A DNA stretch of 64,000 nt from Pezizomycotina sp. ARF18 (Eukaryota; Ascomycota), in assembly GCA_002224055.1 (NCBI GenBank), contig AZLU01000163.1:1-64000 (forward strand), written 5' to 3'. The translations under genes and the position numbers were made by a program. Below the pieces are notes generated by a model. The model ran no database searches and was not told the DNA's origin. It saw nothing but the letters and a program-made list of their open reading frames with translations. Positions 7,959 through 44,258 of this stretch are shown here, piece after piece; position 1 is the stretch's first letter; each line of letters starts with the position of its first letter.

Positions 7959-10185
7959 TGTAGGTTATATTTGAGTCGCGGCAAAGGCTTTTGAATACTT
8001 TTGAATGGATACGTTGATGACTATATTCCCGAAGAGTAAAACAGGATCGAGTAAAATATACTGGAAGAAACAAGACCCGGAAGGAAGCTATATAAGGGAT
8101 TATATTATAGCACAATCCAGAAACTCAAGGGATATTGGCTATTTATATCATTCTTATCAAGCCAATTATATATATATACCATGGTAAAATACGCCACGCA
8201 AATGTATTTCCGGGATTGTGTGTCAAAACGCAGCTTTCTGCTGTAAATAGAGCGTTGGCAATAGGTGGAGCTGCAAGTGAATAAAATTTTTTTCCTATAT
8301 ATTGAGACGTAACCCCACTTCTAAACCCTTTCGTATCCAAATTCAACAGGATGCCGAAGGGAAACAAAGGCGAATGATATCAAATCGCATAGGGGTGCGA
8401 ATAAGGATAAGAAAAAATCAACAATACCTAGAAAAAACGCGAACACTGCCTACGGTTTAGACTTTTAGAGCACAATTATTACTGAATACGGTGAGGGATT
8501 TCAAACAGGCCTTGTCTGTTGTTCTATAGATCCAGTTGTTGGAGCCCCTAAGGCTGTGAAAAAGTTATTGTAACTCAGCATTCAGATATCGGGCTGACTT
8601 TGGTTAAGCATTCAGCTCATTGGTTAAGAAATAGAGTTTTATACGGTCTTTGTCGCTAACTTTCACCCTGCTTTCCCGTCGCTGTTTCTTGTGAACACCC
8701 CCGCAAATGTCGGAATCGGGTCACGGCCCTCGAATCGACATTATTTCACGATGAGACTAACTTATCTATATCTAGAAGGCCCACTTTGCCAGGTCTAGGC
8801 TATAGGCTATAGCAGGTGGAAATTAAACAGAATAAATTTGAGTGTTGGTTATCTGAGGTCTTGTGTTTATTGCCCGATAAATAACCAGATAAGAGTTTAG
8901 CGTCTGGCTGGCTTCGAGATATTAGGCAAAGGTTTTCTTCTTGAATACGGGGTTTTTACCGGCGCCTGCGGCCTGATAGTAAATGCAACTGGTAATCACG
9001 CTGCCTTACAGATTATACATACGGAACCGGCAGGATGTCAGAAGCATGGATGAAATCTCAGTTTATCTGTCTTTGGTTGGTAACTATACAGTCTCTGAGA
9101 GTTGCGCCCTCGGGAGTGGTAAAGTTGAAAGAAACACGCTTATTGTCATATTTGATCTATTTATTTTGAAGACTCTCTGCATCCTGTCTAAATCCTACTG
9201 AATCTGTGATGTCTCTTTCATCCCATTTGTGTGATGTTTTCGCAAAAAATAGTTCGAGAAACGGAAAAATTCTCTTTAGCGTTTGCGTCGAGAACAATCC
9301 CAGACCCAGGTTTTCGATGTTGTTTATAATTGTTGCATGTTGGAAACATTTGCGTTCTGTTGGATTTCTTTGAACGCTAGAAACAAATTGGGGTGGGCCT
9401 TTGCCGGAATGTATCCCGCGATCTTCAATGGCAACCGTTCAAACACGTTTTAGTCACCAACACTGCCAATAAGGATCGTGTGAGATCATTGACTATAAAC
9501 CTGTATTTTACGTTTTAAGATGGTTGGAAACGTCTGGTCTACGGCATATACGGATAAGAATACTACGCTGAATACGTTTACAACTTTTAGAGAGTACCTG
9601 AACGGCAATGTTACTATACATCACATGGTTAGTCGTATTTCTTAAGAAGCATCGAGTTATCGAGCATCGATTGTTATCGAAATAGTCTCTGACCGCAGCT
9701 GCCGGTGATGATCAAATGGTAATATCTTGCTTAGGTTTTCAGGAAAACTAATGGCTTTCTGTGTTTACTGGTTTATTTCTCACCAGAGGTAGTTGTTGGG
9801 CTCTCCGGAGCTTCTCCAAAACCTCCGAAGAAGCTTCTTCGACTGACAATAGACGCGAGGATCATGGGTGTTCGAATTCAGATCCAGATGCACTTCTTTC
9901 AAAATATAGTAACTGAGGATTCATTATACTCTCTCGCCGTTTATGCATTACACGTTATCAATCTGGTTTGCTAAGAATCCTAGGAGCGAAACAGTTCACA
10001 ATTGCGGGAAAGTGAATGGGTTCATACCCTGGCTACCAAGTTACATTAGAGACAGACATTCGCGCAATTATATCTCCGATTTACCGATTCCCCGAAGATG
10101 AGTGAGTCTATTTCAAGATAAACCAGTAGAATAATACTAATATATCTGAATTTTGAACAAGCGCGGGAGGACATCTCTCATGTAA
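7959..10185. other. Gene-poor AT-rich stretch
   Basis: No gene recognised over 2.2 kb. The open frame at 8983-9201 is short and has no family features. Decayed sequence of the ankyrin-deaminase copy that starts at 10186 may extend into 9950-10185, but I cannot show it. Confidence 0.5.
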
Positions 10186-10966
10186 GCAGCACTTTGGGCG
10201 AATATAGACGTTGTTAATTACCTACTCGACATAGAGAAAGCGAACCCCAAGGTTGAGGATCGGAAAGGCAGACGAGCTTTGGATTTGGCACTTCTCACTC
10301 ATAGGAACGCCAGGGAACGGGCCAACGCCGTGGCAAGATTGCAGAGTGCGTATCGGAACAAGCTCGGAACATTATCGAGGTGCAGTTACGAGCTACCAGT
10401 TCTCAAAGCCATCTGAAAATCCTCTGTCTCGATGGTTTGCCATGATAGGAAGGTTAAATCGGACGTCTCCTGTTTGTTCCTTTTCCACATCTGATGACCT
10501 GAAGTTCGCCGAATATACATTCCATCAAGAAATTAACAAAAAAAGACCGTCTACTCAGTATTTCCAAGCCGGGAAGTGCATTGGACGAATGAATTGCGGC
10601 CCCATTTTCCCCATAATATAGCAGGGCATCGGCAATCAGCCCTGCCAGATCGCGAGCCCGTCTCCCGGGCCATCAAAGCCACTCAACTCCTAGCTTTATC
10701 TGAAATCCATACAGATAGAACCTCATATCCAATTTACCATCCTCGCTACATTATAAAAGCAGTAAAAATGGTAGCCCTAAAGCTATCCGACATTATCCAG
10801 TCATCGCTCGGTAGAGTAGGAAAATATAATGCCGTCAAACCTGCTCTACAGCAGTTACTCCAGTTCCGCAAAATGGTAATGAGATCCGTCAGACGCATGT
10901 TTTTGATCTCGGCGCCTTTTCCGTCCCCGTTAATAAATGCCATCCGCCGCAGGCTGGCAGTCTAGC
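10186..10966 (+). pseudogene. Remnant of ankyrin-deaminase paralogue, copy A
   Basis: The first part (10186-10416) encodes AALWANIDVVNYLLDIEKAN, then DRKGRRALDLALLTHRNARE. This matches the last ankyrin repeat and following helix of copies B (EAALWGQLDIVEYLV, DIKGRQAIDLVSS) and C (GRTALMEAA, DAKGRRAVDFAKF). Around 10565-10620 the linker signature GKCIGRMNCGPIFPI matches B (GKTIGRMNRGSGFPIV). The N-terminal Cys/His module and the first ankyrin repeats are not found upstream. The spacing to a deaminase-like stretch (KATQLLALSEIH, near 10675) is shorter than in B, and the zinc-binding HxE is not seen there. I call it a truncated, probably inactive copy. Confidence 0.65.
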
Positions 10967-13213
10967 TTTAGGCACATCGCGATGTCGAATATGTACAACA
11001 CCTTTGGCCAGCTCGTTCCATGCTCTCGGTTATAGAAGCTTGAAATATGACCTCTCAATCCTTTCAGCCGGCTGAAGTTATTAATGGACTGAAGACTTCG
11101 GTTGGAGTTCAAGCAATTTGAGACAAATTCAATTGCGGAAAAGCTCAATGGAAATAAATCTGAAGAGACATCCCAAGACGATACCGTATTGGGTTTCAAA
11201 CTGCCATGTAAGTACTTTTACACGAATATATAGTTATGGATTCAAGTCTACTTGTTTCTGACATTCTAGTTTTGTTATCATGCTTCGAGAGCAGGTGGAT
11301 GACATTAGAGCCAGGGGAAGGAGGGGGAGACGGTTCGAAGGAAAGAAGCAACAAGGAAGAGTCCTACCATGCGGTATGGAGAAATTTTGGGGATAGAAAA
11401 AAAGAAAAGTAAGGAAAAAAGCTGGGTGGTGTGTCCGGCCTCCCAGATTCCAACCAGGTTTCCTACAGGTAAGATAATAAGGGCCATATTTATTTCTGCT
11501 ATTATTTCGCTGCAATTAAACGCCTGGTTCAAATCCGTGAGGGCACATATAAATCACCAAATGAACCTTTTTTTCATCTACTCCTCGTCGTGAACTACGT
11601 GCTTGTTACCTGGACTCATTTCCTAATAAATGTATGATCTTACGTCTTCCTGAAATCCTAGGTTGCGTTCAAGTATGCAACGGTGATCATTGCAATAAGC
11701 CATTTCCCTCACAGCGTCTTCATTCGACCTTCCGCACAGTTGGCGAGTACGCTAAGGCAATTGCGATTGAGTGACTCCGCATTCGCCGAAGCGAAGCCAA
11801 ACCTTACTCTTAAACTATCAAAGTTATGAAACAACTTCACCGAATCGATCTCAAGATGTATTATCTATTAGAAGCCATAATCCTTTATGTTTTGTCAGCA
11901 ATTGCTTGTTCACAATCTCTTCCTAGAGGATATTTCATATCGGGATTGCTTTTAGTCTCCGCATGCTCTCGATCTCAACATCGGCAGCGTATCAGCTTTC
12001 GGGAGTTCAGAGAAAGCACAACTCCACTAAATTTTGATAGGGTTATAAAGTTCATGGCAAGGACAAATAGAACGCCGCAATCAGCCGAGCTTCGGAGAAG
12101 AGCCGGAGCTTTAAACTCTCTCGAGCTTATATAGTCCTTATTGGGCCCAGCTCTCATCTCACGCCAGCACCTTGTGTTGGATCTAACCGACCGTGAGTTA
12201 CCCCATCTCGTTTAGTCATCAGGAAGGAGCCTGAAGCTAACAAATCATCCAAACTCAAAGTTAGCTCAGTTGGTAGAGCATCAGACTGTAACTGTACAAA
12301 ACAACGTCTATCTGGGTGTCCCTGGTTCGGTAAGACTTCAATCCCAACAATCTTGAACTTCAAAGTCAATTCCAAGACTAACAGCTTCATCAGAATCCGG
12401 GAGGTCGGACAAATATTTTTTTATTTGGATGATATTGTCCTTTTTATCTCTTTTTTCTTTTTGCAAGTTGGGTATGGTGACAGATGAATGCTAAAGTGCA
12501 GTTTAACGTAGGGAATAAGGGAACAGGACGTCGTACTTTTTTTTTTTTTTTTCAATTCTTCCCAAGTCTTATTAATCTTGCTCTAGAAAAAAAAATCTTT
12601 CTGCTGCTGTGGCTTAATAACAAATTTGCTCCATCATCTTTGCCTGATTGATCCTCCGCTATTTTATATACTAAAGCTCCTATACGGGCTTTTATCTTCC
12701 AAGCTTCCAATGATTCCGAATGTAAGAGAAATGAAAGAGGAGAGGAATATATAGAAAAAAATGATTGCGGAATTGTTCAACATCCACCCTGCAAAAACAA
12801 TCATCCGGATACTATAGATCCATGTACGAAAGAATCCTCCGACCCATCAATACATTCCCCCCTATATCTCGCATTTCAACCAGGCTATAAACACCTCGAT
12901 CGGAGGTACACTAAGGAGGTCTTCGGAAGAGACCTCACCGGATATTCCGGCGTAAACTGTACAGAACACCACCAATTTGTAAATTTTTGAAGCTGCTTTT
13001 TAATTTCTGCCAGTTGAAGAAACAAGGCTTTCTCAAGTCGAATCTGACGAATGATCATGAACTTGCTCAGCCTTCTCATATTCACCAATTATGATAACTT
13101 ACCCCTCCTTTCGATCCCGTTTACTCTTAAGTTTCCGAGTGTTTCTTACTCTCATCTCAATTTGCGATTCTTAGAACACAGTTTATAGACAAACTATCGT
13201 CTTTGACAAAAGT
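10967..13213. other. Intergenic with a tRNA-Tyr-like fragment
   Basis: No protein gene recognised. Open frames at 10930-11199 (minus) and 11826-12134 (plus) show no family pattern. A T-rich run lies near 12538-12554, and the tRNA-like piece is listed separately. Confidence 0.45.
12256..12345 (+). pseudogene. tRNA-Tyr(GTA)-like pseudogene
   Basis: The D arm TTAGCTCAGTTGGTAGAGC (from 12261) is intact and is followed by TCAGACTGTAA, giving anticodon GTA at 12288-12290. An intron-like insert follows at the position where nuclear tRNA-Tyr introns sit, then TCTGG as the closing anticodon stem and the start of a T arm (CCTGGTTCGG). The 3' half of the T arm and both acceptor strands do not pair, so the gene looks decayed or truncated. 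Confidence 0.55.
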
Positions 13214-15260
13214 ATGAACGAAATGAACAACAATCTGGATAACAATCACGCCAGGGGCAGCGCCCCGGGCTCCGAGAACCGCGGGGCGGATAATACAAAC
13301 CCTGAGCCCGCCGCAAGCGATACCAACAATACGTGTACGCCGAGAGCTACTGTCCTTTGGTGGAATGGTGAGAAAGTCTGCATTAGATGTCCGTACTGTC
13401 GTGAAAGACACGAGCATCTTCCTGTATGGAAAGCTGGCCTTCCAGACCCAGGACACACAGACGAATGCCAGTGCCAGCCTGGTAATTTTACGACCACCTT
13501 CAAGTTCAGATACCGTCCACTTTATCCTTTCAAAGAAGACCTCGATAAAAGCGATCGCCGACAGAAGCCACTACCCTGGGAGTTCAACTCAAAGTTAAGC
13601 AGATTCGAAACGGTGGAGATAGAGAATGACAAAGAAGATTGCGACAGCGTCTATTCGCAAGACGAGGATGATGATCTCGATGAGAAATACTCGGATTCGG
13701 CGGTCAGTATGACTGCGGAAACAATGATCGCAGGCTCGACAAGTGAATTACTTCAAGTCGCAAAAGGCATAGAGGTTTGCAGATCAGCACAACAAGCAGC
13801 GCAGCATCATCGACCACCAGGCTACCTCTGGTGAATCGGAGAAGAATACTCTAGAATTACCGACCGTGCCTTCAAGAACGATTGTGTCCTCTTCTTTATT
13901 AGTAAGACAGCGCGCACACGATTCGGCTCATTACGTCACCGCCGAATATTTTCCTTCGTCAAAAGAGGAAACACAGACGGCCTGAAAACCTTATTAACGA
14001 GTATCCGGACGCAAACTTGAATATCAAGCCATTTGTTGATAAGAGATCTAGTAATGGTTTTATAGTTGCAGCTACTTACGGACACCTTGATGTCCTTCGC
14101 TTGCTATTAGGATCGCCGGGGAAACGGATTGTCGTCGATGCCTTCAATAAGCATAGGAGGACTGCGCTTATGGAAGCCGCTTTATGGGGGCAGCTTGACA
14201 TTGTGGAATATTTGGTCTTCACAGCGAAAGCAAATTGTAACTATCGAGACATCAAAGGCAGGCAGGCTATAGACCTGGTTTCTAGCACGAGTAGGAGAAA
14301 TACAAGAGAACGACGACAACGAAACAGAAGGCTATATAACAAGTACAGAGATATTCCAGAGCAAGCAATCAACGCCATAGAAATTGCCTTAGAATTGGAA
14401 TGACACCATCGACCACCCAGAGCCCTACGAACGTCACGCTACAAACTTGCACGAGTGTATCTCTGAGTATTTTACAAAAATCCGGAGTACAACGAAATTT
14501 ATTCTACAACACTCTGCAGCGAACCACTACAAAGACGATATACAACTTCAAAGGCATGCCAAATTTTCATCCTCGGAGTGGAAAGACAATTGGTCGTATG
14601 AATCGCGGATCGGGATTTCCAATTGTCAATGCACTATCAGGATATTCCCAAGGTGGCTGGCCTTATAGCAAAAGCGACACCACTGAAATATTCCTATCAA
14701 ACAATATATGGACTGGCAAGGTTCGGGCTTATGCTGGGACGCATTGGGTTATGGTTCAGACGATCCCGATATTGGGGTCGGTACGCATGCCATGTGGAAG
14801 CACAGCTATTAGCTTACTATATTGACAAGCACGTCATTGACGGCCGTACTGGGATCACGCTTGATCCTTCTCTCATATCTATGTTACCACTGGATTGGAG
14901 CCACCGACTGCGCAAATACTCATAGGCGGAACGAGAGAGGCTAAGCCTTGCGAGCATTGTGCAAAGTTAATATCCAACGTGGAGGAGAAGCTGGGATTGG
15001 TAATCGAGGTCGGCAGCCCATTCTCCCCAAAACTACCCGACGGCGAAGCCCATGACGACGTTTGTGGGATTCGTACGTTCTCGATCAAGGTAACTTGCTC
15101 TTTACTAGTACTCTTGAGACCGTTCGAAAATCCCTAACAACGGGTTCTCTTTGTGTTTTTTTCTTTCTTTTCTTGTTAAAAGATCAACCCCATCCCCCAA
15201 CACCCGCAGTTCTTAGGGCTCGCAGGACGGCAAGGCGGAGGGCTGAGAAACCAGGGTTGA
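13214..15260 (+). CDS. Ankyrin-repeat protein with C-terminal deaminase-fold domain, copy B
   Basis: The start at 13214 precedes an Asn-rich leader. The N-terminal module reads ATVLWWNGEKVCIRCPYC, with CPYC at 13388-13399, a His at 13409 and a later HTDEC (13454-13468), a likely zinc-binding set. It ends with YRPLYPF and PLPWEF. An acidic linker follows, then ankyrin repeats (GFIVAATYGHLDVLRLLL; RTALMEAALWGQLDIVEYLV) and a conserved GKTIGRMNRGSGFPIV. The C-terminal domain has HVEAQLLAYYI (His 14791, Glu 14797) and, about 50 codons on, PCEHC (14945-14959) followed by LGLVIEV. That HxE/PCxxC pair is the zinc site of the cytidine-deaminase superfamily and resembles DYW-type deaminases. An intron is seen at 15090-15182. 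The reading frame changes several times. Substrate and role are unknown; nucleic acid is the inference from the superfamily. Confidence 0.7.
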
Positions 15261-15761
15261 ACATGGACCACTAACAAGTTGAACAACCGCCGCGCTCGTT
15301 CAAATATCGACGTAACTGAATTCACTGATATCAATCACTGCCATATCAATGCTCACTTCCCGCGCAGTATATTCTTTTCTTTTCTTTTTCCCCTTATCTA
15401 TCTAACTCAGGAACGACTTCTATAGTTCGTAGGGTCCCAGACTAGTCTTCAGTATAATAAATTGAGTAAAGTTTACTACGCCAATTTATAAAAACTACAG
15501 CCATACTGTGGGCGTATAAAGCTTGTTCTCCTGACAACCGCCATATGCAAATACCCGCGATGTCTCTGCCTCTGATTAATACCTTAGGTTTTAAACCCTC
15601 AATAAAAAGAACTTCACTATCCCTCCTGCTATTAGTATTATAGCAGTCGCGGCTAGCTATATTCTTATGTATTTAAAGCAGAAGTACCTATCTATTGTGT
15701 ATTCTCATCTTCATGCTCAATAAAATCCTTTTGCTCACATATATGATTGAAAGGTTTAAAC
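15261..15761. other. Intergenic
   Basis: No gene recognised. The stretch holds AGGGTCCCAGACT at 15431-15443, the exact reverse complement of one arm of the hairpin at 2784-2796, in AT-rich surroundings. Confidence 0.5.
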
Positions 15762-18260
15762 CTACACATACATACTAAATATAATAATAAATGGAAAATT
15801 GCATACAACTATGCCCCTGAGCTGAATATAAGACTCAGAACCAATCGTGAGCTCATTATACATCACTATTAGACCTTCCAGACGCTCGGTCGGATCATAT
15901 TCAGCGGTATCACCGACATCACGGAGAGGTACGGGTTGATGTTTGCTCATGAAACCCTAAAACCCGGAACAAGAGGACGTTAACTTGAATATTTCCTTCC
16001 AGAGGTATATGGGATTTTGGAACACGGAAATCAGTATTATAGACACATACCTCAACGAGAGCGCCTACAGCAGTCATTGAAGCTAAAGACAATGGAGTGT
16101 ATTTTGTCAGCAAGACGCAAATCAACACTTCGAGAGTCCGGATAATTCCATACCATAGCGAAGCACAAGTACCTCCAACCGAAGTGATCCTTTAATGCGC
16201 CACCTGCAATCAAGGGTTAGATCGACGAATGAGATGAAGTTCCCGTAGTTCAAAGATTTCGAGCTTACCAATGAAAGGTCCGATCAATGAACCAAAGGCA
16301 TACATGATACCGCAAATCGAATACTGTTCATAGCATCAGCACATCATCCATGTTCCATAGCCAAGTCATGCACTTACCGCCATCCCAACCCCTCTCCTCC
16401 GCCCCTCATCCTACCCACCCTCTCCAAATCCCTAACGCTTCGCCGGAAACTCCGCCGAAACACTTGAGCTTCTCGCCGTCCCGGTAAATCCGATTAGCAC
16501 AAGCAGCGTCGCCAGGATCCCAACCCGTTTCTGCGCATCCGCATCTAACGGCGTGCTCCTCAATACCTCCACAATATTCATTAGCGTTGTCTTCTGCACA
16601 AACCCATCCCAAATATAATCGGCGTAACGACCACAAAGCTAAGCGTAATGATAGTCTAGGCGCCTGCGTCTTATCCCGTATCCACCGAAGAACGGACCGC
16701 AAAACGATGGTATGACGATGGTGGTAAACAGCGCGGCTGTTTCCGCTGGACCGTATCCGAATTCCTCATTCGCGAACAGTGGGAGTGTTGCTTCGAGGGT
16801 CTGAAGAGGGCCGTACCGAGGAGCATGGAGAAGCAAGCGCAGTTGAAGCGAGCCGAGCTGAAGAGCGCGAGACAGACGCGCAGTGGGGAGGTTTGCTCAG
16901 GCGTTCGTTCTGTGGTTGTTGATCGGAAGATGAAGAGGCTTGTTGGTCGTGGCCGTTAGCGAGGAGCGGGGAGCGTTCAGTGTCTCCGTTCCGGATGGCC
17001 CATTTGACGCTGGCGGCGAATTCCGTGCTTCGATGACAGCGCGGAGAGTCTTTGGTTCGATGATTATAGTGCGTAGGACGATGTCGAAGACGAGCTACGA
17101 GAGATATATCAGTTATATAACTTAGACTTCGACCGTATAAAATGGGACAACGGAGCGAAAACACCTACGAGGCCGAGAGCCATATCGAAGACTTTTATGA
17201 ATAGTTACAGGCATTAATACACACGAAGCTTCCCCTATTTATGATTGTAATACTTACCAGCGTTATACCCAGCCCTTTTGCAACACCGCATTCGTCAGCT
17301 TCACTCATGATTACCGAGGGGAAGTTTAAGAAGAAAGAAGACTTACCTAGCATATATAGCACCCCCGACAACCGGCCCCATAAACATCCCGATATTCCCA
17401 CCGACGCCCATGAGACTCAGGTATCTCCCGCTCTCTCTCTCGTCGACCCGATCAGCGAGCAAACTCTGTCCGACGTCCAGGTGAGGCAAGCCGCCATGCC
17501 CGTGAAGAAGCGACCACAGACGAGAACCCAGACCGCCGTGCCGAACCGTATTATCGCCGTGGACACAAGCAGGAATATGAAGCGAGCAGTAGGGGAGGCG
17601 GCGCTAGAGGCGACCTCTGTTGCATCTTGTTAGACGGATTGAAGTGTGAGAAGACTAGGAGATTATGGCATACCACTGATCCACCCACAGAGCGCTACAT
17701 ACAGGTTCGCTGTCGTTAGCGTTTTGTAAACCGAATGGAAATTACGAATGGTTGATGACTTACGCGCTCGACGAGGACTCCGGCGCCGCAGATGCCCACA
17801 AGCAAACTTAATACCTGTTGTACTGTAAAATCGAAACAATATTAGTCTGGCTATAAGTCAATTTTGCGGTGGTAGCGTTATGTCTTACCATCTTCCTTCG
17901 GTACGCCTGATCGCTGCTGTAACGAGAATGGGAATACAGGTAGTACGAGACTATAAGACGTCATCCAAGGGGTGTCGCAAAGACCAGCGTTAGCTATCGT
18001 GACGTAGAAGCATCGAGAGTATCAAGCAGTCCTATCCAACGTGTAAAGAATATTGAAATGGTGATTACCCGTAGAGAAACGTATCCTGTTTCAAATGTTT
18101 AGAACGTTAGAATACATCGCTGCGCAAAGGATAAGACCATGAGGAAACTCACCGTGAAAACAGACATGACCGCGCACGCCGCGATCAGGAATTTACCGCT
18201 TCTGAACTCGAAGAACATGTAGCCGCCATTGACGGCTGCTTTGGAGGAAGAGTCAGGCAT
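15762..18260 (-). CDS. Major facilitator superfamily transporter, DHA/vesicular-amine-like
   Basis: This is a proton-coupled exporter-type permease of the plasma membrane or vacuole; the substrate cannot be told. The minus-strand start at 18260 gives MPDSSSKAAVNGGYMFFEF followed by a first helix. Later exons read YSLVLPVFPFSLQQRSGVP, QQVLSLLVGICGAGVLVER, RFFTGMAACLTW and SLMGVGGNIGMFMGPVVGGA. The last matches MFS motif C (G-x8-G-x3-G-P-x2-G-G), which marks drug:proton antiporters. The second half has LPLFANEEFGYGPAETAALF, MYAFGSLIGPFIGGALKDHF and a cytoplasmic tail with SKHQPVPLRDVGDTAEYD. At least five short introns are visible, with frame changes between exons. It sits between deaminase copies B and C on the opposite strand. 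I see no sign that it belongs to a biosynthetic cluster. Confidence 0.75.
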
Positions 18261-19351
18261 TGGTAGTATGTAAGGTTAAGACGAAGCGGGGTGAAATATC
18301 GAACTGACAGACACTAGTTCTTGGAAAGAAAATGAGGGGAAACGCGACCGTATTATACTAGCTCATAACGCGAAAGCTGGGAGAGACTGAGAACAAAAAC
18401 AGGGTATTTTAGTGTAAAGTTGTGCAGAAAGGAACGATAAGCAAATCAGGGATAAACTAAAAAATCTCCGATCTGCGGGCAAGGAACCAGACTGGCGCCA
18501 TTCGTACTACACTGTGCCGTAAAGGGCAAGACATGCAGATAGGATTAAGATTTTCGCTATTGGCTCGAAATCTCCGCCGATTCCCCGTGAGACGGATCGA
18601 GGCTCCATTCTATCCATTTAGGATTATCATTCTATCCCTTTAGGATTATTAGGATTATGTTACACGCGCAATGCCCAAGGCCTCTAGGATTATAATCCTG
18701 AACGGTTAATTTCCTTCAAAGATACCTCCTTCTTAAACACTACATTGCTAGGCATCCAGCCGGTTAATAGTCGGAATAGCCGTAGAGACCTCGCGTATTT
18801 GAGGATTTATATCAACTATTATACTATGTAGAAGTTCAAGCGGGTTCTATTTGAGATACTGCTGGATCTACAACTTATCAGGCATTACGATTAGTTTATT
18901 CACTAAGAGTGCGCATACGGTATAAGTAGGACTCAAGTTCGATGAACTTATATCAGCGATATACTATAGAGCTCCGCTGCTCCGTAATCCCTCTCGTGTT
19001 ACATAGGCGACTTCGAATCTTGTAAACAAGTCCTTGTTTGAAAACATACTCATAAATAACAATATTATTCTATTTATTGACGCCTGCCTGTTTTAGCTCG
19101 CGTTTCGTGAAACGAGGGGTTCATCCCGCGCAGCCGTGCCGAGATACACTTAGAGAGAGCCTTGCATGTTGCGAAGTTCCAAACCCCTTTTTGATCGCAG
19201 GCATACATAGCCCCGCTGTCGCTATTTATCTCCTGACTCACCATCAGCTCCAATGTTCTTCCTTCTGATAAACAAGCTTCAACCATCACGATCGCGGGCA
19301 AGGCCTCTTCCTAGTCTCTCTGGATTCATTGACTGAACTAGAGATTCTAAG
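18261..19351. other. Intergenic with short TAGGATTAT repeats
   Basis: No gene recognised. Between 18615 and 18700 the word TAGGATTAT recurs four times (TTTAGGATTATCATTC, TTTAGGATTATTAGGATTAT, TCTAGGATTATAATCC), probably a decayed local duplication upstream of copy C and the divergent transporter. Confidence 0.5.
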
Positions 19352-21526
19352 ATGCGACAAGCACAATACACCATGGGCAGCTCCGGCGCCTCAAACAACC
19401 TCTCATACGACTCGACATCTCCGGATTCTACAACACCAACGGCGACAGTAATCTGGTGGAACGACAAAGTGTCTGCGTCCAGTGTCCCTATTGCCTCAAA
19501 CAGCACGAGAACCCGCCCGTCTGGCAGAATGGCCGTCCTCTAACAAACCACACAGACTCCTGCGACTTCCGGGTCTGCGGGTACGAATATGTCGTCTGCC
19601 GTATAGGCCGCTATACCCCTTCGAAGACGGCCATTCGACTCCTTTATCGTGGAAAATCGATAAGGAGGTTGGGGAGTTTGTTACCGTAGGATTTGCTGAA
19701 ATTCCTGAAGAGACGGATTACAGCGAAGACGAACGGAGCGACGGTTATGAAACCGACGAGGAAACGGATAAAACTGCGAATGGAACGCCAGCAACGCCGG
19801 CGCGCCCACGTACTGGATCGATACAGCGGAACATGAGGGCTAGCACGCCGGGCGTGAACTCTTTAACGGACGAAACGAACAGATTGGGCATCAATGATCA
19901 AAGTGAATTGAATCCTGAGATGGAGGAAATTATGAGCGAAATGGAAAGGTTGGGGCTGTCAGGCGAAATCCGGCCACAGAACATAATTTTACAATCAATA
20001 GCAGAAGACAGAAGCAAGCCTCCCGCTACTCCGTCGCCACCGGAGCGTTACCGTCCTGCGGCACCTGGGACTTCAATGACGAAACCGCCGTTTCTGACGC
20101 CTCCGATGAGTCCCGAGAGCCCTAACGGCAGGTTAGCATCCCTAACCGAAAGTATACAGCTCTTCTTAGAAACTTTGGGGACCAAACCGCCCGGGCGGAG
20201 GCTTTATCTAAGACCGCAGCAAGCACTGCGGCAACGCTAGCTCAAAATCCTCCCCGCACGGCGCCATCTACTCCTCAACGCCCCGCTCCCGCTCGTATAC
20301 ATCCTATACAGAAGCGAGACCCGCCGCCGCAACCATAGATCCTAATTCACTCTCCCTCGATGGTCTCTCGATCGACGATGCACCGGCCACGGCTGGTTCT
20401 CCTGCTTCGACGAAGGAATCGACTTATTGATGAAAAACAGCAAAAAGAACGATAGGTTACGTTACTTTGCTCTAATTCGCTCGTCCGACGAATTTCACCT
20501 CCGCCTGCTCTTGAAGCCTTCAAATACTGCAGATCTCCTCGATCTCCGCGACAAGAAGGGTAACACGGGCATGATACTCGCTAGTAGATATGGTTCCGTG
20601 GATATCGTCAAGTTACTACATGAAAACAAGAAGTCACTGCGCTACGTTAACGCTCGCAATATAAAGGGCCGCACGGCGCTGATGGAGGCTGCGTGTGGGA
20701 CAACTCGCTGTAGTACGGCATTTACTATCGTAGGCGCGGATCCGGACGTGCAGGACGCGAAAGGACGGCGCGCCGTAGATTTTGCAAAATTCAGTAAACG
20801 TAACGTACATGAGCGTTCGCAGCGGAATAAACAACTGTACGAAAGACACGAGAAATTGCCGGAGCCGATACTTAATGCCATATCGGCGCATCTCAAAGTA
20901 TCAAAAGCTCAATCGCCTGCGACTTCTAGTAACAAGTTAGGCTACGTGGAAGAAACGAACATGTCGTCAACATCATCCTATTTCATACGATACCCTTCAT
21001 CTCTCAGTTCCGACACCTTCTCTGTTAACACACAAGCAGATCTCCGACAATACGCAATTACGACGTACTCCAATATCCCGGACTCGAAAAAGTAATCGGT
21101 CGCCTCGACCGTGGTTCATTGTTCCCGTCGTCAGCGCACTCAGCGGGTATACTCAGACATATTACGCTCGCAAAAACAAAGACTTCCTGAATAACAGCCT
21201 CTGGACGGATAAAGCGAAGATTTATCGGATAAATATGACATGTATTATCCGAAAAAAATCAGCCACGGGATGGCATCGCATGTGGAGAAGCAGCTGCTAG
21301 CTTACTACATCTACAATCACGTTTTGTTAAAAGGCGAGCATGTAAACTTGAGGAGTGTAACGCCGCCGATGGACGCGCTGCCGATGGCGAGTATAGTCGT
21401 GGGAGACAAGGCGGAGCCGTGTGAGAGGGAAGAAGCTGTAAGGTGTTTATTGAGCAGATAGTTAGGAAGATTAGGCTACCGATCGCTGTTACTAAGAGAG
21501 TGCATAGATGTCGTATGCGGGCTTGA
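19352..21526 (+). CDS. Ankyrin-repeat protein with C-terminal deaminase-fold domain, copy C
   Basis: This is a paralogue of the gene at 13214-15260 with the same domain order. The N-terminal module reads ATVIWWNDK then VCVQCPYC (CPYC 19483-19494), a His at 19504, HTDSC (19549-19563), YRPLYPFED and PLSWKIDKE. A long disordered acidic, then Pro/Thr-rich linker follows (about 19700-20400). Ankyrin repeats are at about 20460-20790 (NTGMILASRYGSVDIVKLL; GRTALMEAA), followed by DAKGRRAVDFAKFSKRN and SERSQRNKQLY-like helices as in copy B. The linker near 21110-21210 carries VSALSGYTQ and LNNSLWTDKAK. The deaminase part has SHVEKQLLAYYI (His 21279, Glu 21285) and EPCE (Cys 21420), but the second Cys appears several residues further on than in PCxxC. 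The frame changes several times. Confidence 0.7.
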
Positions 21527-23071
21527 AGGATAGGAACGCTATAGAACATGTTTGATTAAGATAGGAGAGCAAAGTAGCGGTCGGGCTTCTATTTCGCTTT
21601 CATTCTTTTTCTCCGTTTAGGGTTTCCATACGTATCGTCGCGGGCTATGGGTTCACGATCGTTAAGAGGGTTGGAAGTTTTGTATGCTATGGTTTCTGTT
21701 GCATTTACTTTGTAGTTCATGATACCATTCCTAATTTTTTTTGGTAAGATGAAGCAGTTTCAATATTTCGGTGATCTGTGAAAGAACCGGAGACCAAAGT
21801 CCGCTAATTCCGCCCCAGTTCCATACCCCATCTGCTTGGTTAGGGCCGTCTGCCGTTGGAACAAGGTTCATCATGAACCTGAACAAATTTCGGCACTTAA
21901 ATAACGCTAATGAAAATATTTATAGAAGAGATCTCCGATCTCCGAAGAGCGGAAACGTCACGGCCAGAGTAGTACGTTCCCGTGTAATTTCAGCGTCCGA
22001 CAAAAGATCTTCTAGAAACTCAGGCGCGTAATAATGTTCATCCGGAAATGACGTCTCTGGATCTGGTACTGTGCCCTGCAATCCTTTGTAAATCGCCGAG
22101 GGAATGTGAATCAGGATTGGGGGGTTGTTTTTCAAACCGGCGTTCGGTTCCATAACCGTTCACAAGAAACAATCATAAGATTATATCGGGCGCACGGCCG
22201 AGGTGATTGCGCTTCTCACGATCGGATCTCGTTAAGGACGTATGTAGTAGCAAAACGCTTTTGGAGGTGTCATTCGCAGATTTCGCTCCCACCGATGCAG
22301 CGATGCATGTTACCCCGCTGTGCTGTTCGCCATGCAGGCTGCTAGTGGACAGTGTCTTTTTCCTCCATCCTCCTTAAGGATCTTCTACTCCGAAGCCGCA
22401 CAATTGATTGACCAACAGGAAGTCCAGGAAACCTCTTAAGTTCTGCAGCTTTTGGACGGACGAAACGCACTACTATAACTCAGATTAGCTCACTTCGGTA
22501 AGTCCATCTGTCATGTGTCTTCTTTGGGTTATAACTTCCAGGCAGACGGCTGGAGTGAAAAGTTAGTTCGTCAGGCGACCAGACAGACAAATCACCGACA
22601 ACCTTTTCCCCCTCAATCTCTCATTCGACTTATTCGTATTGCTGACAACTTTCTCCTTGGGATCTCTTGTTAGGCAATTTGGGATTTCCGTTGCATATAC
22701 TGGGTTGTTCCCGATTTCTCTGGTGCCCCTAGTCATCCTAGTCCCAGGAATTCTCCTGTACTTTGGTCAATAATTCTGCCACTAACCCTTCTGCAATCCT
22801 GGTGAATCTTTAAAGGTCATTAATCCCAGATTTCGCCTCATGCACACTGGCATGTACATCTCGTATACGAATTTTTTTCAGAGTTGAGTTACATCGAAAA
22901 AATTCTGCGATCCGTTGTATCTGCAAAGCAACGCTGCAGAGCGGGAAGCCTATTATAGGTAGAAACAAATCATCGGAGTCGGAAGAGAAGGTATACTATC
23001 AACGATTCCATGAAAACTAGAGTATACATACATAAACAAGGCCCCTTCCGAACAAGGGCAGCTATAAAGAA
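21527..23071. other. Intergenic
   Basis: No gene recognised with confidence. A minus-strand frame at 21920-22153 (starts MEPNAGLKNNPP, contains PDEHYYAPEFLEDLLSDAE) has a protein-like composition and might be a fragment of a small gene, but no homologous pattern is visible. Confidence 0.4.
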
Positions 23072-29108: not shown

Positions 29109-30571
29109 TTAGTTCCCATGTCCGCTGGCCCGGACTTCCTCGCCAGTTTCCTCCTCAATAACCTCCTCATAAAGCTGCTCCTCCAGCTCATCCTCAATCT
29201 CTCTACGTCCGGCTCCTCCTCCAACTCCAGCTCCTCAATCTGCTCCAGCGCCTGCGCCGCCGGATCCATACTAACAATACTCCTCCCCCCATCAAACGTA
29301 ATCCTCTTCCTAACGCTCAACTCCAGAATCCCTTCGCCTCCATCCCCCCTACTAACCTTCCTCTGCTTCATCCTCTTCTCACCAATAGCATCGTCATCAT
29401 CCGCCTCTTCAATATCAAACCTTGTAACGCCATCGATACTGCCGTCGTCGGCAACGGGCGGTTAACCACCGCCGTGGGTGCGAATACTAACGCCTGTCCG
29501 ACGTTCAATTCTATGATACGGTTGAATACGTCTTCCCTTTCTCGTCTTGGACGTTAACGTGCTTCCGAAGGGTTCGAAACCATTCTGGACTAGTAAACCT
29601 GTGGCAGACGGTCATGGAACATAAATCCAGTAAACGCGGGCTAACCGTGGGTTCCTGCGTCGATATAATTACACGCGCGCCGTAGTGTCGCTGCTGCCGG
29701 ATAAGTGCCAGCAGGGAGTCCGTAAACTTCGCCGCGGCCGGGGAGTTAGTGATATACTTGTGCGCTTCGTCCAGCGCAACCACAAGCCCTCTATTCCCAC
29801 CCTTCGCGCTAGCTCCGCTCGCCGTCAAATAAAAGTCCATCGATATACTAAACAGCGCGCACGCAGTCTCCGGGTCTACGAACGGACAACTTAAATCAAT
29901 AAGCGTAAGCACGCCCGTTCGACACTGAACTGACTCGCCGTATCGTCATCGCGAGGAAAGACTCCAGTAGCTCCAGACGCATATTGAGCATGCTCGCCTG
30001 CTCGCGGTTTAAACCTGCGCTGCCGAGCTTCCGCTTAAAGGCGAGGTAATCGAACGCGCCGCCTTTCATCGTCGCCATGTCGCGGAGGATTTGTGTTACG
30101 CGGTGCATGTACAGCGGCGTGTTGCTGGTAGAGGTGCCGACGGCCATGAGCTGGAGCATCGAGCCGATCGTTAAATCCTTCGGTCGGAAGCGTAGGGCGG
30201 AGACGGACGCATTAGGGATAGAGGCGTACGCGGCTTTCATGTTTGCGTAGTTCGATGCAGAAACGAGTATGCGGACGCTGCGGACGGATTTGACGGTGGT
30301 GGGTAGTGGATCTGTTGGTAGAGGTGGTTTTCCGAGGTATCGGCCTCGCAGGGTCGGAAGGAGGAGTGCGAGTGAGGGCTGAACTGGAAGACGAGGCGGA
30401 AGTGGCTTTTGCAGCATCCGAGCTTTGGTTCGGGGACATGAAGTTTTTCCAACATACAGGATAGAGTATGTGACTTGCCGCTGCCTTGAAGACCACAGAT
30501 GAAGGCGGAAAAGGGACATTGGCGTTGGTGAATAAGCGCTTTGTCTCCCCGCCAACAGACGTCGTCCCCAT
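29109..30571 (-). CDS. HerA/FtsK-like P-loop ATPase
   Basis: The protein shows an ATP-binding core of the HerA/FtsK type, known otherwise from bacterial and archaeal DNA-pumping ATPases and from a fungal family of unknown role. Walker A is GLQGSGKS (30471-30494), after TNANVPF..SAFICG. Walker B is VVALDEAH (29760-29783). Further motifs are LTLIDLSCPFVDPETACALF, LLALIRQQRHYGARVIISTQ (sensor with Thr-Gln) and PRLLDLCSMTVCHRFTSPEW. The C-terminal part reads NRIIELNVGQALVFAPTAVV, then KRITFDGGRSIVSM and an acidic end (EIEDELEEQLYEEVIEEETG). Glutamate after the Walker B Asp suggests an active ATPase. Several frame changes occur. Whether the acidic region upstream belongs to the same gene is open. 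Confidence 0.7.
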
Positions 30572-30699
30572 CAGGGAGAACTGCGGTACTTTCGGTACTA
30601 GCGCATCGTTCGCGGTTTCTATAACATCGTCGGATAGTAGCGGTGAGTTCGCGATCCTGTGGGATTTATCGAACCCTGCTGAGGCGCCGCCTCGCGATG

Positions 30700-36161: not shown

Positions 36162-38611
36162 ATGGCGCACCGCGACCGCTATCGTTCCTTCCGGCTCCAA
36201 AGGTCACAGCTTAGGTCAAGATATATAGGATCAGTCGAGCGGTATCACGGGTTCCGCCAACTAACTCTAATGGCGCATACGCTCGTTACGGCTGCGGATA
36301 ACTTGAATCATTCGGCGGACTAGGTCAGCGGGTGGTTCACGGCTATGGTCAGGGCGGCGACGGAGAGCGACGTTGATTGGGACTGTGCGTTGATATGTAG
36401 GAATTCGGAGAGGTGCTGCCGGCTTCAAGTCTGACGCTATCAAAAGTAGCCGCGATAACTAGGAGGAAGGATGGCCGTTGGAAATCCTTTTGGAAAACAC
36501 AGCTTGGTTGGGCGATGATATCTCAATGCTGCTGGCTGAGAGCACTGGAGGCCTCAATTTGCTCGCCCTCGCGGCCGTTTTGTGCTCTGCAGAGAGGCAG
36601 TATTTATTCAAGGGTGCGCAGGTTCTGCATAACGTTATGGAGACGCAACTAGTGAACGCGGGAAGAACGAGCTACCGCCGATGTGGGCTCTCGAAAAGCT
36701 GTGGATAGCGATGCAACCGAAGATGAAGCAAGCCGGGTTCGAGAAGACACTCCATGGCTGGACGGAATTCCTATCGACGAAGATTCAAGGCGCTGAGGCC
36801 GAGTGTGTTTTTAAGGAGCTGGCAATATTTCCGACTAACCTTTTAGGAAAGATTATCACGACTTTCATCAACATCGAAAGGGAGAGACAAAGTCTGTCAG
36901 GATACGGATGACGAAGCTGGTTCCCTGGATCGTTTCAGTAACTTCATGGATCTTGGGAAGCCCTCCGCACATTGTAGCGCAGCAGGATGGATCTACTATA
37001 TTTTCTTCGCTTGGCTCGAAAGTTACCGTCGAGGTTTTGAAGCTGGAGGATCCCTTGCGTCTATCGATGAACCGGACTTCTATAAGAACAAGAGGAATTC
37101 GATATGTGTCAAGGAATTCCAGGCACTGGAAACTATTGAAGCGACGCCAGCCGCCAGCCAACCTTTTCAAGTTCAAGAGAATTCTACGAGCACAAGCGAG
37201 CATCTCGATATGAGATGGGGAGATGGAGGCATCGCTTCAACGTCGACATGGAACCGATGCTAACACGGCGTTACGGCGCAGACGACTCAAATATACAGCA
37301 TCGGCAGGGTATGGGCGGTATCACGACGGCTATAAGTGCCGTGGACGAAACAGAGAGCGGCTGACGAACGATTGGTATGATGGCTTGTTCCGGCCGCTGA
37401 AATTAGCTCTCTCGCTTAAATGATGGGTCGAGGGACACTACCAGTTCCTCTGGGACACTAGTAGAGTCTTCCTTGGACCTCCCAAATCGGGTGACGATAG
37501 AGGCACCGCAGAGGCCGTCGGTGCACTTCAGCTCTGACAGTTTCAACAAGCTTTCAGAATCAATCTTGCTATTATTGAAATGCTGCCCTTTGCGTGCAAG
37601 CAAGCATCTCATCTGATCCACGAAGAAAGGGAAAGTTCCGCCGCTGCATAGCAGTACCAGTGCAAGCTCGGCACGAGTACCGGTTTTCACCTTTGAATAG
37701 GATCATGGGCTCCCTCCTGCGTGCTATATCGACGAGAGGCATCTTTGACAACCCCGTACGAAGAAGTATATGAGCATGCCATACACACTCCACTTGTATC
37801 GCTTCAACCCGGGATCCCTCTCTTGTTGAAGTCGGAAGCTGCAAATGCTCAACCTGCCCTACTTCCAGAAAGTATTAGAAATTGCCAAGTCCTCGAATCG
37901 GAGAAAGATGGCTCGGGGCGGCCAGTCGATAAACGTTATCAAGACCTTATCCTCTCAAACATTCTGGTTCCTACAGCTTCGCTCGCGCCTAATGATCTCT
38001 GTGTAAGACTCCGATTCTTTCGGACGTTGGCAATATGTACTATCGACGTCCTATATCACTCATTAATGGCTCACCCTGACAGCGCCAAAGGAGGCGATAT
38101 ACCACTGGCAGGCTCGGAAAATAACCACGACGCAATCCATTTCTCGACGAAGATTGAATTCGACTTTGATCGTGTACCCGAGCCGTTTTTCAACTTCGGA
38201 GCATCGCTCTTTTGGATATTCCTTACGGGAAAACTGACTACATTAAGACACGGCGACGCGCTATCTTGCCTGCTCTGGCTCCTAGGTATAAAAGTTCATT
38301 CGTCGAGAGATAGCTCCATTGTCCCTACCGCTGCTGCGAGTTTTAGTGCCAAAGCACAGCAAGCCGCAGAAGATTTCGTTCGGCGTAATAGCCAGGTCAT
38401 CGAGGAGCAATTCGCGCGTCGGCTTAGCCAAGTTATGGTGGAGGAGCAGTTCGCGCGCCGGCGGAGTCAGGGCAAGATGGAAAATCAGATTGCTGGCTCT
38501 CCGCGTGCGCCGATCGACGAGGTGGATAAAGTACCTCATATCCATGTGAACGATAAATTTCACGACACGAATGAGGCCCAAAATGAAGGCACCCGCGGAG
38601 GGCTAACGTAA
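36162..38611 (+). CDS. Large unrecognised fungal protein
   Basis: I do not recognise the family. A start at 36162 (MAHRDRYRSFRLQRSQLRSR) leads into DNLNHSADLVSGWFTAMVRA-like sequence. Further readable parts in order: AWLGDDISMLLAESTGGLNL (36505), ALEKLWIAMQPKMKQAGFEK (36685), KIQGAEAECVFKELAIFPTN, VPWIVSVTSWILGSPPHIVA (36920), a region with NRVTIEAPQRPSVHFSSDSF (about 37480), the long frame 37721-38611 with IPLLLKSEAANAQPALLPES and FGASLFWIFLTGKLTTLRHG, and near its end two copies of EEQFARRxSQ. Frame changes separate these parts. There is no signal peptide. The WILGSPP-type segment reminds me of fungal proteins of unknown function that lie in variable regions, but I cannot name them. Two adjacent genes are possible, with a boundary near 37430. 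Confidence 0.45.
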
Positions 38612-39096: not shown

Positions 39097-40210
39097 ATGG
39101 CCGACACGACTGACTACCCGCCACTATCACGGCAATCTGTCCTGGACGCTCGCGAGCGTATAAAAGGGTATGTCCACCGTACTCCGGTACTCACCTGTAA
39201 GACCCTAGATAAGCTAGCATTCTCCGGTCCAATCGAATCTTCTTCGAACCCTTCGACGGAGCACCTAGACGACACCTCGTCATTGAATCAGAACCCCAAG
39301 ATCAACCTATTCTTCAAATGCGAGAACCAGCAGCGCGTCGGTGCGTTCAAAGTGCGCGGGGCATTCCACGCCCTCGGTCGCATTCCGCCTGCCCAACTGA
39401 CCAAAGGCGTTGTAACCAACAGCAGCGGGAATCACGCGGCCGCCCTCGCCCTGGCCGCGAAGACCTTCGGCGTGAAGGCGTACATCGTCATGCCGGAAAT
39501 ATCGCAACCGTCAAAGATCGCCGCGACGAGATCGCACGGCGCTGAAGTTATATTCTCGGGGAGCACGAGTGTTGAACGCGAAGCCGTGACGGAGAAAGTG
39601 ATCGAAGAGACCGGCGCGCTTTTAGTGCCGCCGTATGACCATCCCGATATTATCGCCGGCCAGGGTACGATGGGCTTGAGCTGCAGGAGCAGGTAGAAGA
39701 ACTCCTTGGAGAAGGCAACCAGCTCGACGCCGTGCTAACGCCTTGCGGTGGTGGTGGAATTCTCAGCGGCGTCGCATTGTCATTCCGAGGAACGGGAACC
39801 CACGTCTTCGGAGCTGAGCCGAATTTTCAAGACGCCAATGACGCGGAACGAGGCTTGAACGCGAATCCGCCGAAGAGAGTCGAAAGCGTGAAAACGCTGA
39901 CCATCGCCGACGGGCTGAGAACACCTCTCGGCGTGTGGAATTGGGGCGTCATGAGCAACAAGGAGAACGTAAAGGTGTATATAGCGCTGACGAAACTGCG
40001 ATTAAAGGGGCGACGAGGCTTGTCATGGAGAGGATGAAGACTTTCGTCGAGCCTTCGGCCGCTGTTCCTTTAGCCGTTGTCCTGTGTAATGAGAAGTGGA
40101 GAGAGCATATGAGGGAATTGATGGGAGATAAGACGGAATGGAATATTGGGATCGTATTGAGCGGTGGCAACGCTACTATCGAGTCCATCTCGAAGATATT
40201 TGCTAGTTAG
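39097..40210 (+). CDS. PLP-dependent serine/threonine dehydratase or serine racemase-like enzyme
   Basis: Fold-type II PLP enzyme that deaminates or racemises serine, threonine or 3-hydroxyaspartate in the cytosol. The start at 39097 gives MADTTDYPPLSRQSVLDARE, then HRTPVLTCKTLD, FFKCENQQRVGAFKVRGAFH (the Schiff-base Lys is residue 85), VVTNSSGNHAAALALAAKTF, YIVMPEISQPSKIAATRSHG, PYDHPDIIAGQGTMGL and the phosphate-binding loop TPCGGGGILSGVALSF. The C-terminus has IVLSGGNATIESISKIF with the usual SGGN. The length of about 370 residues without an ACT regulatory domain fits the racemase/SRY1-type group rather than biosynthetic threonine deaminase. Two frame changes occur, near 39677 and 39974. 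In each a single extra G in a G run keeps the family sequence going, so sequencing error is likelier than decay. Confidence 0.85.
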
Positions 40211-40844: not shown

Positions 40845-43800
40845 ATGGCCGCCTACCAACGCTCCTTCTACCACGGCGGTAGGTTCCCGTCTGCAGAAAA
40901 CGTACAAACGGCGCGACCTTCGTCCGTCTCAAACGATCGCGGGAGGGGTCAAAGCGTCGAACCTCAGGTAAGGAAAAAAGAAGGATTCGTGCAGGAAGCA
41001 AACATAATGTCCTGCAAGTAGCCGTCAGTGGTTCGAGAATGAAGGGTGAATCCGTTAACATGCAGTTTACTCGAAAAACCTGCAGATATTATCCCGACCG
41101 ACGTTCGGGCCCTGAAGAAATCCGTCACCTTCGACTCGACACACCAATACGTCCCCCCGCCTCCCGCGATCCCTCAACCAGGCGAAGACAACATCCTCTT
41201 TTGAGCCCGCAGAAGACGACGACCTCCCTCCACCTCCTAGGCGATCCGCCGAACGTCCGCCACCCCGGCGCAGCGGCGAGAAAGACCGCCACGATGAGGA
41301 CGACGACGAAGAAGACGACGACGAAGACAACTCCCACCAGTACCACGCGGTCGACTCCGACGGCAGCGACGTCGGTGAGATCCCACCGCGACCATCGAAG
41401 CCATGGCCGCGCCGAACACTCTTCAAGCGCCACGGCTCTTCCTCCTCCCCCGAGCGGTCCAACGCGACCGAAGACGACGAAAACGAGGACGACTACGAAG
41501 ACATGATCGGCGTGCAATCCTCCTCCACCAACGACCGCCGCATGCAGGAACCCACCCCGGCCAACCCGTCACCTCCGCGGCCGCCTACACCCTCGGCGAC
41601 GAAGCGCGACCGTCGGGTCACCAGAGAATCAACGTGCTGCAGCCGCAGAGGACTAACCTGAACTGGCAAACGTCCGGTCCGAATTACAGACGGCAGAGCT
41701 CGCTGAGGCCGCAGCAGACGATGAACTACCGCCCGGGGTCGATGAGCATACCGACGGCTCCCAGCCACGGGGTTTATGGGGGATCGAATCCACCACAGCG
41801 GCCGAGCGTTTTTAGGTCGAGGGAGGAGGTTAGTCGGATCCAACCTGGGTACTATGAGGACTCTTACATTGCCGCGGAGCGGATGCCGCCCATGCCGTCT
41901 GTATTCGATGAGTATGAGAGGGTCGAACAACGGCGTACGGCAAGCCCTCGGCGGCCACCGCAGCTGAGAAGAGCGTTCGAAAGACAAAGTAGGACCGAAG
42001 AACCGGAGCAATTACGACCGGATGATTCTGCTGCTGATGGAGGTGGGCTTGTTGTTGATCCTGGCAAAAATGTTGAGGATCTTAATCTACGGCGGCGACT
42101 GACAGGGCAGGAGAGATTACAGCAGAGGAAGCAGATGCAAAGGGAGAAAAGGGAGAGGCGAATACTTCAAAAGGAAAAAACGAGGCTGCAAGTAGAGGAT
42201 GAGCTGGAGAAGGAAGAGCAGAGGAAAGTAAGACAAGAGGAGGTTATCGCTAACCTTGAAAGGCAGCGAGATCAGCTGAGAGAGGATGTCGCGAGGCTAG
42301 AAGCAGAGGCGGAAGAAGAAGACGTAGAAGAGCCAGCATCGCAAGAAGAACCTCAGGGAAGCCGGCGCGCATCGAGAACAACAGAGACTGAACGTGAGCT
42401 CCGAAGACAACTTGAAGAAGAGAGGCGGCGGAGGGCTGAAAACGAGAGAGACGCCGAACGTCTGATGGAGAAAGAGCAACAGAGACTAGCTGCGGAGTAC
42501 CAGGGAACCATCGATAAGCTCAAGGAAGAACTTGCGCGGAAAGATGTCGAGGCCCGACGCTCAAAAATGGTATTCGAAGATGCAGCTCGGGTAGGTGAGA
42601 GCAGTAAAGTGGGCTTGAGCGAGGATGCACCAATCCACTGCGGCCCGCTCCTCCACCTCCCGTCCCGAGGTCATCTATGGCAGGAAGGACTTCATTAGCA
42701 GAGCCTCCTCCACATCAATTACGAAGGGCTGCAGGCGCAACCTCTCAGTCGCGGCCACGCACCCCAGTCGACCAGCAAGATAAACCCCATTCCATACCCC
42801 AAGTCCAAACAACCCCTCCACCCGCTCCAGAATCACCTGCCTTTGGAGCTGCTTCGCCGAATTCACCGGCCTCACCGAAGCTGCCACCTACCTCACCGAC
42901 CTATTCCCCCAAATCGCCAAAGTTTTCGCCTACATCGCCCAACTACTCACCTACATCCCCCCTATTCGAACGCCGGAGTGCTCCTGGGTTTGTCGACTCG
43001 CCTCGCTCACAACTCTCCTCTGCATCGAGACGGCAGCAAGCTCCTACATCAGCACCGCAGGGGGATCAAAACCGGCATTCCTCACGCCTAGCCCAATTCT
43101 CTGAGCCCGAAGATGAAGAGGAAGAAGAGGAAGAAGCCGGAGTCATCATCAAACAAGAGGAAGCTAGCAGTGTCGAGGGAGATCGGAGAAGACGCCTGAT
43201 GTCGACCCCCTGGCCTGAACGGGAATACACCATAGAATCGTCAGATCCGGCAGCGAACCAACTTAGCAGGGAGTATACCACGAGTTCCGGTTTTAGCGGC
43301 CCGAGGCGGCCGTTTGAAGTGCTCGTCCGACCGCCTTACCGGCAGGGCACGCAGGACACCGACGCGACCGGTGCTACTAATGTCACTGGTGACTCGAGAG
43401 ACCAGCACTTCCGAAGACCGCCGCGACCGTACCGCCACGATACGATAAAGACCGAAGGGACCGAAGAAAGCCGGGACTACCCCTTCATAATCCCACCCAA
43501 CGACGGTGATCGCCGCCACCTACAATCCCCCGTGTGGTCATCGGACGAGGAAGGAGTGTACCGAGCGCGCACCAGCGGGCAGCGGGTCCGCCGGAGCAGG
43601 AGCAGATCCGCCGCGTACCCTCCACGGCTGCCATATGGTGGTTCCGCGGTCCACGTCGATGCGAGGTGGGGTTTCCATCCGGAACCGACTTTCCGAGCAG
43701 CGACGCCGCCGGGAGGCTACCATGCCGGCGGTCCCGAGGTAGCGGAGTGGTTCTTCCCGCGGCAGGAGCAGGTGGACCGGTACATCATCCAGCCGATGCT

Positions 43801-44224: not shown

Positions 44225-44258
<34 letters not shown>

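Follow-up and report, generated by a model that had tools for sequence, protein, structure and literature searches.

Three ankyrin-repeat copies in the ARF18 contig

The first 64,000 bp of contig AZLU01000163.1 (forward strand; assembly GCA_002224055.1) of the ascomycete Pezizomycotina sp. ARF18, hereafter the window, have a fungal-looking gene make-up and contain three related copies of an ankyrin-repeat gene, all on the + strand: copy A (10156–10618), copy B (13214–15089), and copy C (19373–21490). Copies B and C end in a domain that, judged by its sequence, is probably of the deaminase class, and both run through several reading frames, which we find best explained by bases lost in the assembly. 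A first-pass annotation, made from the letters and their open reading frames (ORFs), had placed the copies about correctly, with copy A beginning ~30 bases earlier than given there. The parts of the copies are as follows.

10156–10359, + strand: copy A, last ankyrin repeat plus the basic helix after it, containing an in-frame stop; identity to copy B at 34 of 68 residues
10562–10618, + strand: copy A, GRM linker (KCIGRMNCGPIFP), in a frame other than that of A's ankyrin part; 11 of 18 residues identical to copy B
13214–13834, + strand: copy B, N-terminus, Cys/His module (WWNGEKVCIRCPYC..H.H..HTDEC), YRPLYPF, and acidic linker
13987–14400, + strand: copy B, ankyrin repeats (Ank_5, E 5.7e-11; Ank_2, E 3.4e-10)
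14574–14735, + strand: copy B, GRM linker, ALSGYS loop, and start of the SsdA_C-like stretch (PF24120 alignment)
14747–14898, + strand: copy B, region running into the HVEAQLLAYYI helix (HVE from 14791), split over two consecutive frames
14901–15089, + strand: copy B, PPTAQILIGG, PCEHC (from 14946), and tail
19373–19760, + strand: copy C, N-terminus, Cys/His module, YRPLYPF, and acidic stretch, spread over three frames
19761–20436, + strand: copy C, low-complexity Pro/Thr-rich linker, frame changes placed by eye only
20490–20915, + strand: copy C, ankyrin repeats (Ank_2, E 2.4e-8); 45 of 128 residues identical to copy B
21083–21225, + strand: copy C, GRL linker and ALSGYT loop, in two frames
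21237–21425, + strand: copy C, HVEKQLLAYYI (HVE from 21279) through PMASIVVGDKAEPCE, in one open frame; PF24120 match at the HVE end
21437–21490, + strand: copy C, CKVFIEQIVRKIRLPIAV, in another frame, which would align with B's second Cys and the following helix; 6 of 18 residues identical

Copies B and C share a common order, comprising WWN and a CPYC..H..HTD.C module (probably zinc-binding), YRPLYPF, an acidic linker, ankyrin repeats, a GRM/GRL linker, ALSGY, HVExQLLAYYI, a short strand, and PCE. Alignment thereby agrees with the sharing of the Cys/His module, acidic linker, ankyrin repeats, GRM linker, and HVE(A/K)QLLAYYI that had been reported for the two. Pfam ankyrin families exceed their cut-offs in both, identifying each as an ankyrin-repeat protein. 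When twelve pieces were compared to the window by tblastn, the significant places were copies A, B, and C. Between B and C, the ankyrin stretch matched at E 6.6e-19, the CPYC module at 7e-11, the ALSGY and GRM pieces at 1.5e-6, and the HVE stretch (13 of 18 residues identical) at 7e-4. Copy A matched B in an ankyrin alignment of 70 residues (E 1.3e-12; z 25.9 against shuffles for the ankyrin part) and in the GRM linker (E 0.014 and 0.007). Copy A had been said to keep the last ankyrin repeat and the linker, and both do match B; however, the ankyrin stretch is interrupted by an in-frame stop, aligned to a Glu of B, and the linker lies in another frame. A motif scan of 10100–11100 found no HxE followed by PCxxC in this copy.

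Over 313 aligned codons, B and C share 141 identical residues (45% overall), and their differences fall at codon positions 1, 2, and 3 in 135, 110, and 210 codons (0.43, 0.35, and 0.67), with the proviso that the protein-based alignment slightly favors positions 1 and 2. The ankyrin part of A and B gave a similar picture (31, 20, and 44 of 68). Given that the B/C differences concentrate at third positions, the ankyrin-deaminase family seems to have been under protein-level selection for most of its history. We read B and C as two diverged genes and copy A as a real remnant.

Reading frames and probable assembly base losses

None of the copies is a single open frame, a point absent from the first-pass annotation, although the relatedness of its three paralogues is borne out by the tblastn matches. 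With frames labeled by position modulo 3 and changes placed by alignment, copy B runs 2-1-0-2-1-0 (five changes), two of the changes lying in gaps of 152 and 179 bases, each of which could conceal more than one event. Copy C runs 2-1-0 up to the linker and 0-2-1-0-2 from the ankyrin repeats on (six changes), with three further changes of the same −1 sign in the low-complexity linker, placed by the look of the frame only. As a yardstick for assembly errors in the window, we took a PALP/serine racemase gene (39097–40207, + strand), which passes through frames 1-0-2 by two net −1 changes and whose pieces, joined with X, align over both breaks to serine racemases of known structure (best 6lut, E 7.3e-59). 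The net change was −1 in all 13 alignment-placed cases (five in B, six in C, two in the racemase), or 16 of 16 including the linker of C. Since random decay is expected in both signs and a single sign occurs in B, C, and a housekeeping racemase alike, we infer that the frame breaks of B and C are best explained by systematic single-base losses in the assembly.

Several observations weigh against this explanation. The −1 remainder was computed for 11 of the 16 changes, the sign of changes C2–C5 and of the second racemase break coming from frame labels only, and the last change in C depends on a weak alignment. The frame change in copy A is not −1, nor, by eye, is one change in an ATPase-like gene that lies in pieces at 29511–30665 (− strand) a single −1. 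A CorA-like gene in the same window runs for 487 codons without a break.

Other causes of the breaks were also considered. Introns were rejected where 11 of the 16 changes leave fewer than 12 bases, and three more 18–34 bases, of room; this rejection does not extend to the two long gaps of B. Programmed −1 frameshifting was set aside because the housekeeping racemase has the same breaks. It is also conceivable, if unlikely in our estimation, that B and C are, like A, true pseudogenes, and that a small tandem ankyrin-deaminase family was killed by frameshifts in this strain. All three copies are indeed broken, with A a plain remnant carrying a stop, and alignment-placed changes are denser in B (~2.7/kb) and C (~2.8/kb, or ~4.3/kb with the three placed by eye) than in the racemase (~1.8/kb). 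However, decay of this kind fits poorly with changes that are all −1 when placed by alignment, as they also are in the racemase, and with the third-position bias of the B/C differences. The nine aligned B/C segments contain no stops, which counts little since they were chosen from open stretches. Given the uniform −1 sign of the placed changes and the third-position bias, we find it more probable that B and C are genes obscured by bases missing from the assembly than that they are pseudogenes, and within this window, broken frames are not readable as dead genes.

The C-terminal domain

The C-termini of B and C were assembled from their pieces at the amino-acid level, an X marking every break, a weak test given the broken frames, and compared to Pfam. 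Both matched a single one of 24,736 families, SsdA_C (PF24120), below its cut-off (curated at 27 bits). According to PMC7901873, SsdA is a toxin that deaminates cytosine in single-stranded DNA and falls within the DYW-like clade. Trimming to the matched region gave E 0.026 (15.6 bits) for B and 0.0084 (17.1 bits) for C, values that are flattering because the trimming came after the match was seen. In B, positions 2–55 of the 56 in the profile were aligned, from ALSGY to the HVE helix. None of 18 controls matched SsdA_C (eight shuffled or reversed untrimmed sequences and ten shuffled trimmed ones). The match draws its weight from involving a single family, which is a deaminase family, and from falling where the motifs lie, in both copies.

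Other results count against a deaminase assignment. Untrimmed, the matches stand at E 0.26 (12.4 bits) for B and 0.1 (13.6 bits) for C, and three of the 18 controls matched unrelated families at comparable E-values (0.13, 0.14, and 0.074). In C, the best stretch takes in no more than 10–13 residues, at the HVE end. Across 390 genomes from a single bacterial order, SsdA_C gave 18 sub-cut-off matches of 15.1–22.4 bits, ten of them with internal stops; as chance matches at the genome scale score equally high, such scores alone prove nothing. Separate open-frame pieces searched against Pfam (E up to 5) returned ankyrin families in B and C and otherwise chance-level names, NCBIfam and PHROGs gave nothing for the deaminase part, and single and profile searches of Protein Data Bank sequences gave no deaminase. 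A structure model of the open frame of C shows a helix from HVE, strands, and a helix near PCE, but is unreliable at a predicted local distance difference test score (pLDDT) of 43.8; a model of the N-terminal module (pLDDT 44.9) was not used.

Searches for relatives with the two-row B/C alignment (prokaryote and viral contigs) and with B's ankyrin ORF (viral contigs) confirmed none. Eight Sinorhizobium plasmid records found by tblastn in plasmids (E 0.3–0.7) were taken as chance, since in the one record examined the frame of the match differs from that of an overlapping 472-amino-acid ORF (amidase-like by eye). PF24120 and the DYW_deaminase profile (PF14432) had no matches over cut-off in the 390 bacterial genomes; as none of 14 control genomes gave a signal either, that scan says nothing about absence.

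The residues of a putative zinc site are divided among frames. In B, HVE lies in frame 1 and PCEHC in frame 0. In C, HVE and PCE share one frame, which reads PCEREE and not PCxxC, and a candidate second Cys lies in another frame within CKVFIEQIVRKIRLPIAV, whose alignment to B is weak (z 3.7; score 25, under the best of 300 shuffles at 27). Hence, of the PCE(H)C earlier reported in both copies, PCE is present in both and PCEHC in B only. No open frame in the six frames of the window contains H[AVILMCST]E followed 30–70 residues on by PCxxC.

Kinship of this domain to the SsdA/DYW clade is supported, though below cut-off, and the C-terminus of B and C is probably of the deaminase class. The label of a DYW-like deaminase used in the first-pass annotation is reasonable, since SsdA has been placed in a DYW-like clade, and it agrees with the sub-cut-off match in both copies and in no control; the DYW_deaminase profile itself, however, matched neither the pieces nor the joined C-termini at E up to 5. 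Two other readings of the domain bear on this. In one, which we hold to be very unlikely, it is a non-catalytic partner domain of the ankyrin repeats in which HVE and PCxxC are incidental, consistent with the lack of any match over cut-off, of a useful model, and of relatives in the searches made. Yet both copies match a single family, one of deaminases, and do so at the expected place, and HVE, PCE, and SGY are retained between copies that are 45% identical overall. In the other, which strikes us as a little less improbable, it is an inactive deaminase derivative used for binding only, for example in sensing nucleic acids or partners. Here the replacement of SGW by SGY in both copies and the second Cys of C, whose placement is uncertain, would fit, but B retains HVE with PCEHC and C retains HVE with PCE.

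Proposed function

On balance, we consider it reasonably probable that B and C encode intracellular multidomain proteins in which a Cys/His module is followed by a flexible acidic linker, ankyrin repeats, and a deaminase-like domain of SsdA/DYW kinship, their frame breaks being base losses in the assembly. In such a protein, a zinc ion would be bound by the HVE histidine together with both PCxxC cysteines, and the HVE glutamate would activate a water molecule, such that cytosine in single-stranded DNA or RNA would be converted to uracil by deamination. The ALSGY loop, which occupies the position of SsdA's SGW loop, may adjoin the active site, and the ankyrin repeats may bind a partner or hold the enzyme inactive until it meets a sign of an intruder or of non-self. 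The location (cytoplasmic or nuclear), zinc binding, activity, substrate, and role in conflict are accordingly all putative, as is the tandem family of editing or mutator enzymes suggested in the first-pass annotation. A bolder version, which we regard as very doubtful, is a fungal ankyrin-guided SsdA-like enzyme that mutates the single-stranded DNA or RNA of intruding elements or incompatible nuclei, that is, a mutator resembling APOBEC or repeat-induced point mutation (RIP) but of independent origin, self-duplicated alongside and carrying its own Cys/His sensor module.

If active, these proteins would represent eukaryotic equivalents of SsdA-type DNA mutators that might act in fungal genome defense or self/non-self conflict, and they could supply compact parts for base editors. 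The literature searched here yielded no tested function for any fungal ankyrin-deaminase, and the word "deaminase" is absent, by term search, from a 2025 review of fungal cell death (PMC12881547).

Other features of the window

Fragments of an MFS transporter gene lie between copies B and C (16400–17633, − strand) in several frames, with an MFS_1 match for one piece (E 1.5e-6, under cut-off); one of its frame changes is also −1-like by eye and stands outside the count given above. In the ATPase-like gene, a P-loop (GLQGSGKSHT) and a Walker-B-like motif (VVALDEAHKY; by eye) are in separate ORFs, with weak Pfam matches under cut-off. A Ser/Pro-rich ORF (42608–43921, + strand) contains YSPTSP-like repeats over the cut-off for the RNA polymerase II C-terminal domain repeat (PF05001, 25.9 bits), and just downstream lies the CorA-like ORF (44603–46066). 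We also noted a run of 30 A at 44225–44254 and two tandem copies of a 39-base unit at 38389–38462, within an ORF of 304 amino acids.

Comparison with known systems

Fungal proteins with SsdA-like names are present in public databases, and fungal DYW-type deaminases with ankyrin repeats were reportedly described by Iyer and colleagues in 2011. The SsdA/BaDTF2 bacterial toxins, such as SsdA of Pseudomonas syringae, resemble B and C in belonging to the only profile matched, in HxE and a Cys pair (the second Cys of C being a candidate), and in an SG-aromatic loop upstream of HxE. As described in PMC7901873, SsdA differs from plant DYW proteins in that strand 2 and helix 2 flank an SGW motif, and in the absence of a DYW terminus and of CxC and PG motifs; its catalytic motifs are given as HAE and CxDC in PMC11789416. 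B and C, in contrast, have SGY and not SGW, HVE and not HAE, and, in B, PCEHC and not CxDC, and they carry ankyrin repeats and a Cys/His module where the toxins have a secretion-system fusion. No delivery domain known to Pfam was found in the B and C pieces, which leaves them without a link to interbacterial toxin delivery. As the PF24120 score stays under its cut-off and the SGW motif is replaced in both copies, we have not filed B and C in the SsdA group.

Plant PPR-DYW RNA-editing factors are similar in plan, with a repeat array followed by a C-terminal deaminase domain. However, the repeats in B and C are ankyrin and not PPR, the DYW_deaminase profile is unmatched, no DYW tripeptide occurs in any forward frame of 14500–15300 or 21000–21700, and no CxC follows the zinc motifs.

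The fungal DYW-type ankyrin deaminases, compared here by description and not by sequence, share with B and C the ankyrin repeats, the C-terminal DYW-clade deaminase (predicted in B and C), and the fungal host. The first-pass annotation had pointed to such proteins, and the fusion of ankyrin repeats with a DYW-type deaminase in fungi is indeed in print, in PMC11789416. With their probable deaminase domain, copies B and C would fall within this already described fungal kind; by the tests made, they resemble SsdA/DYW-type deaminases on paper but are not placed in the SsdA group.

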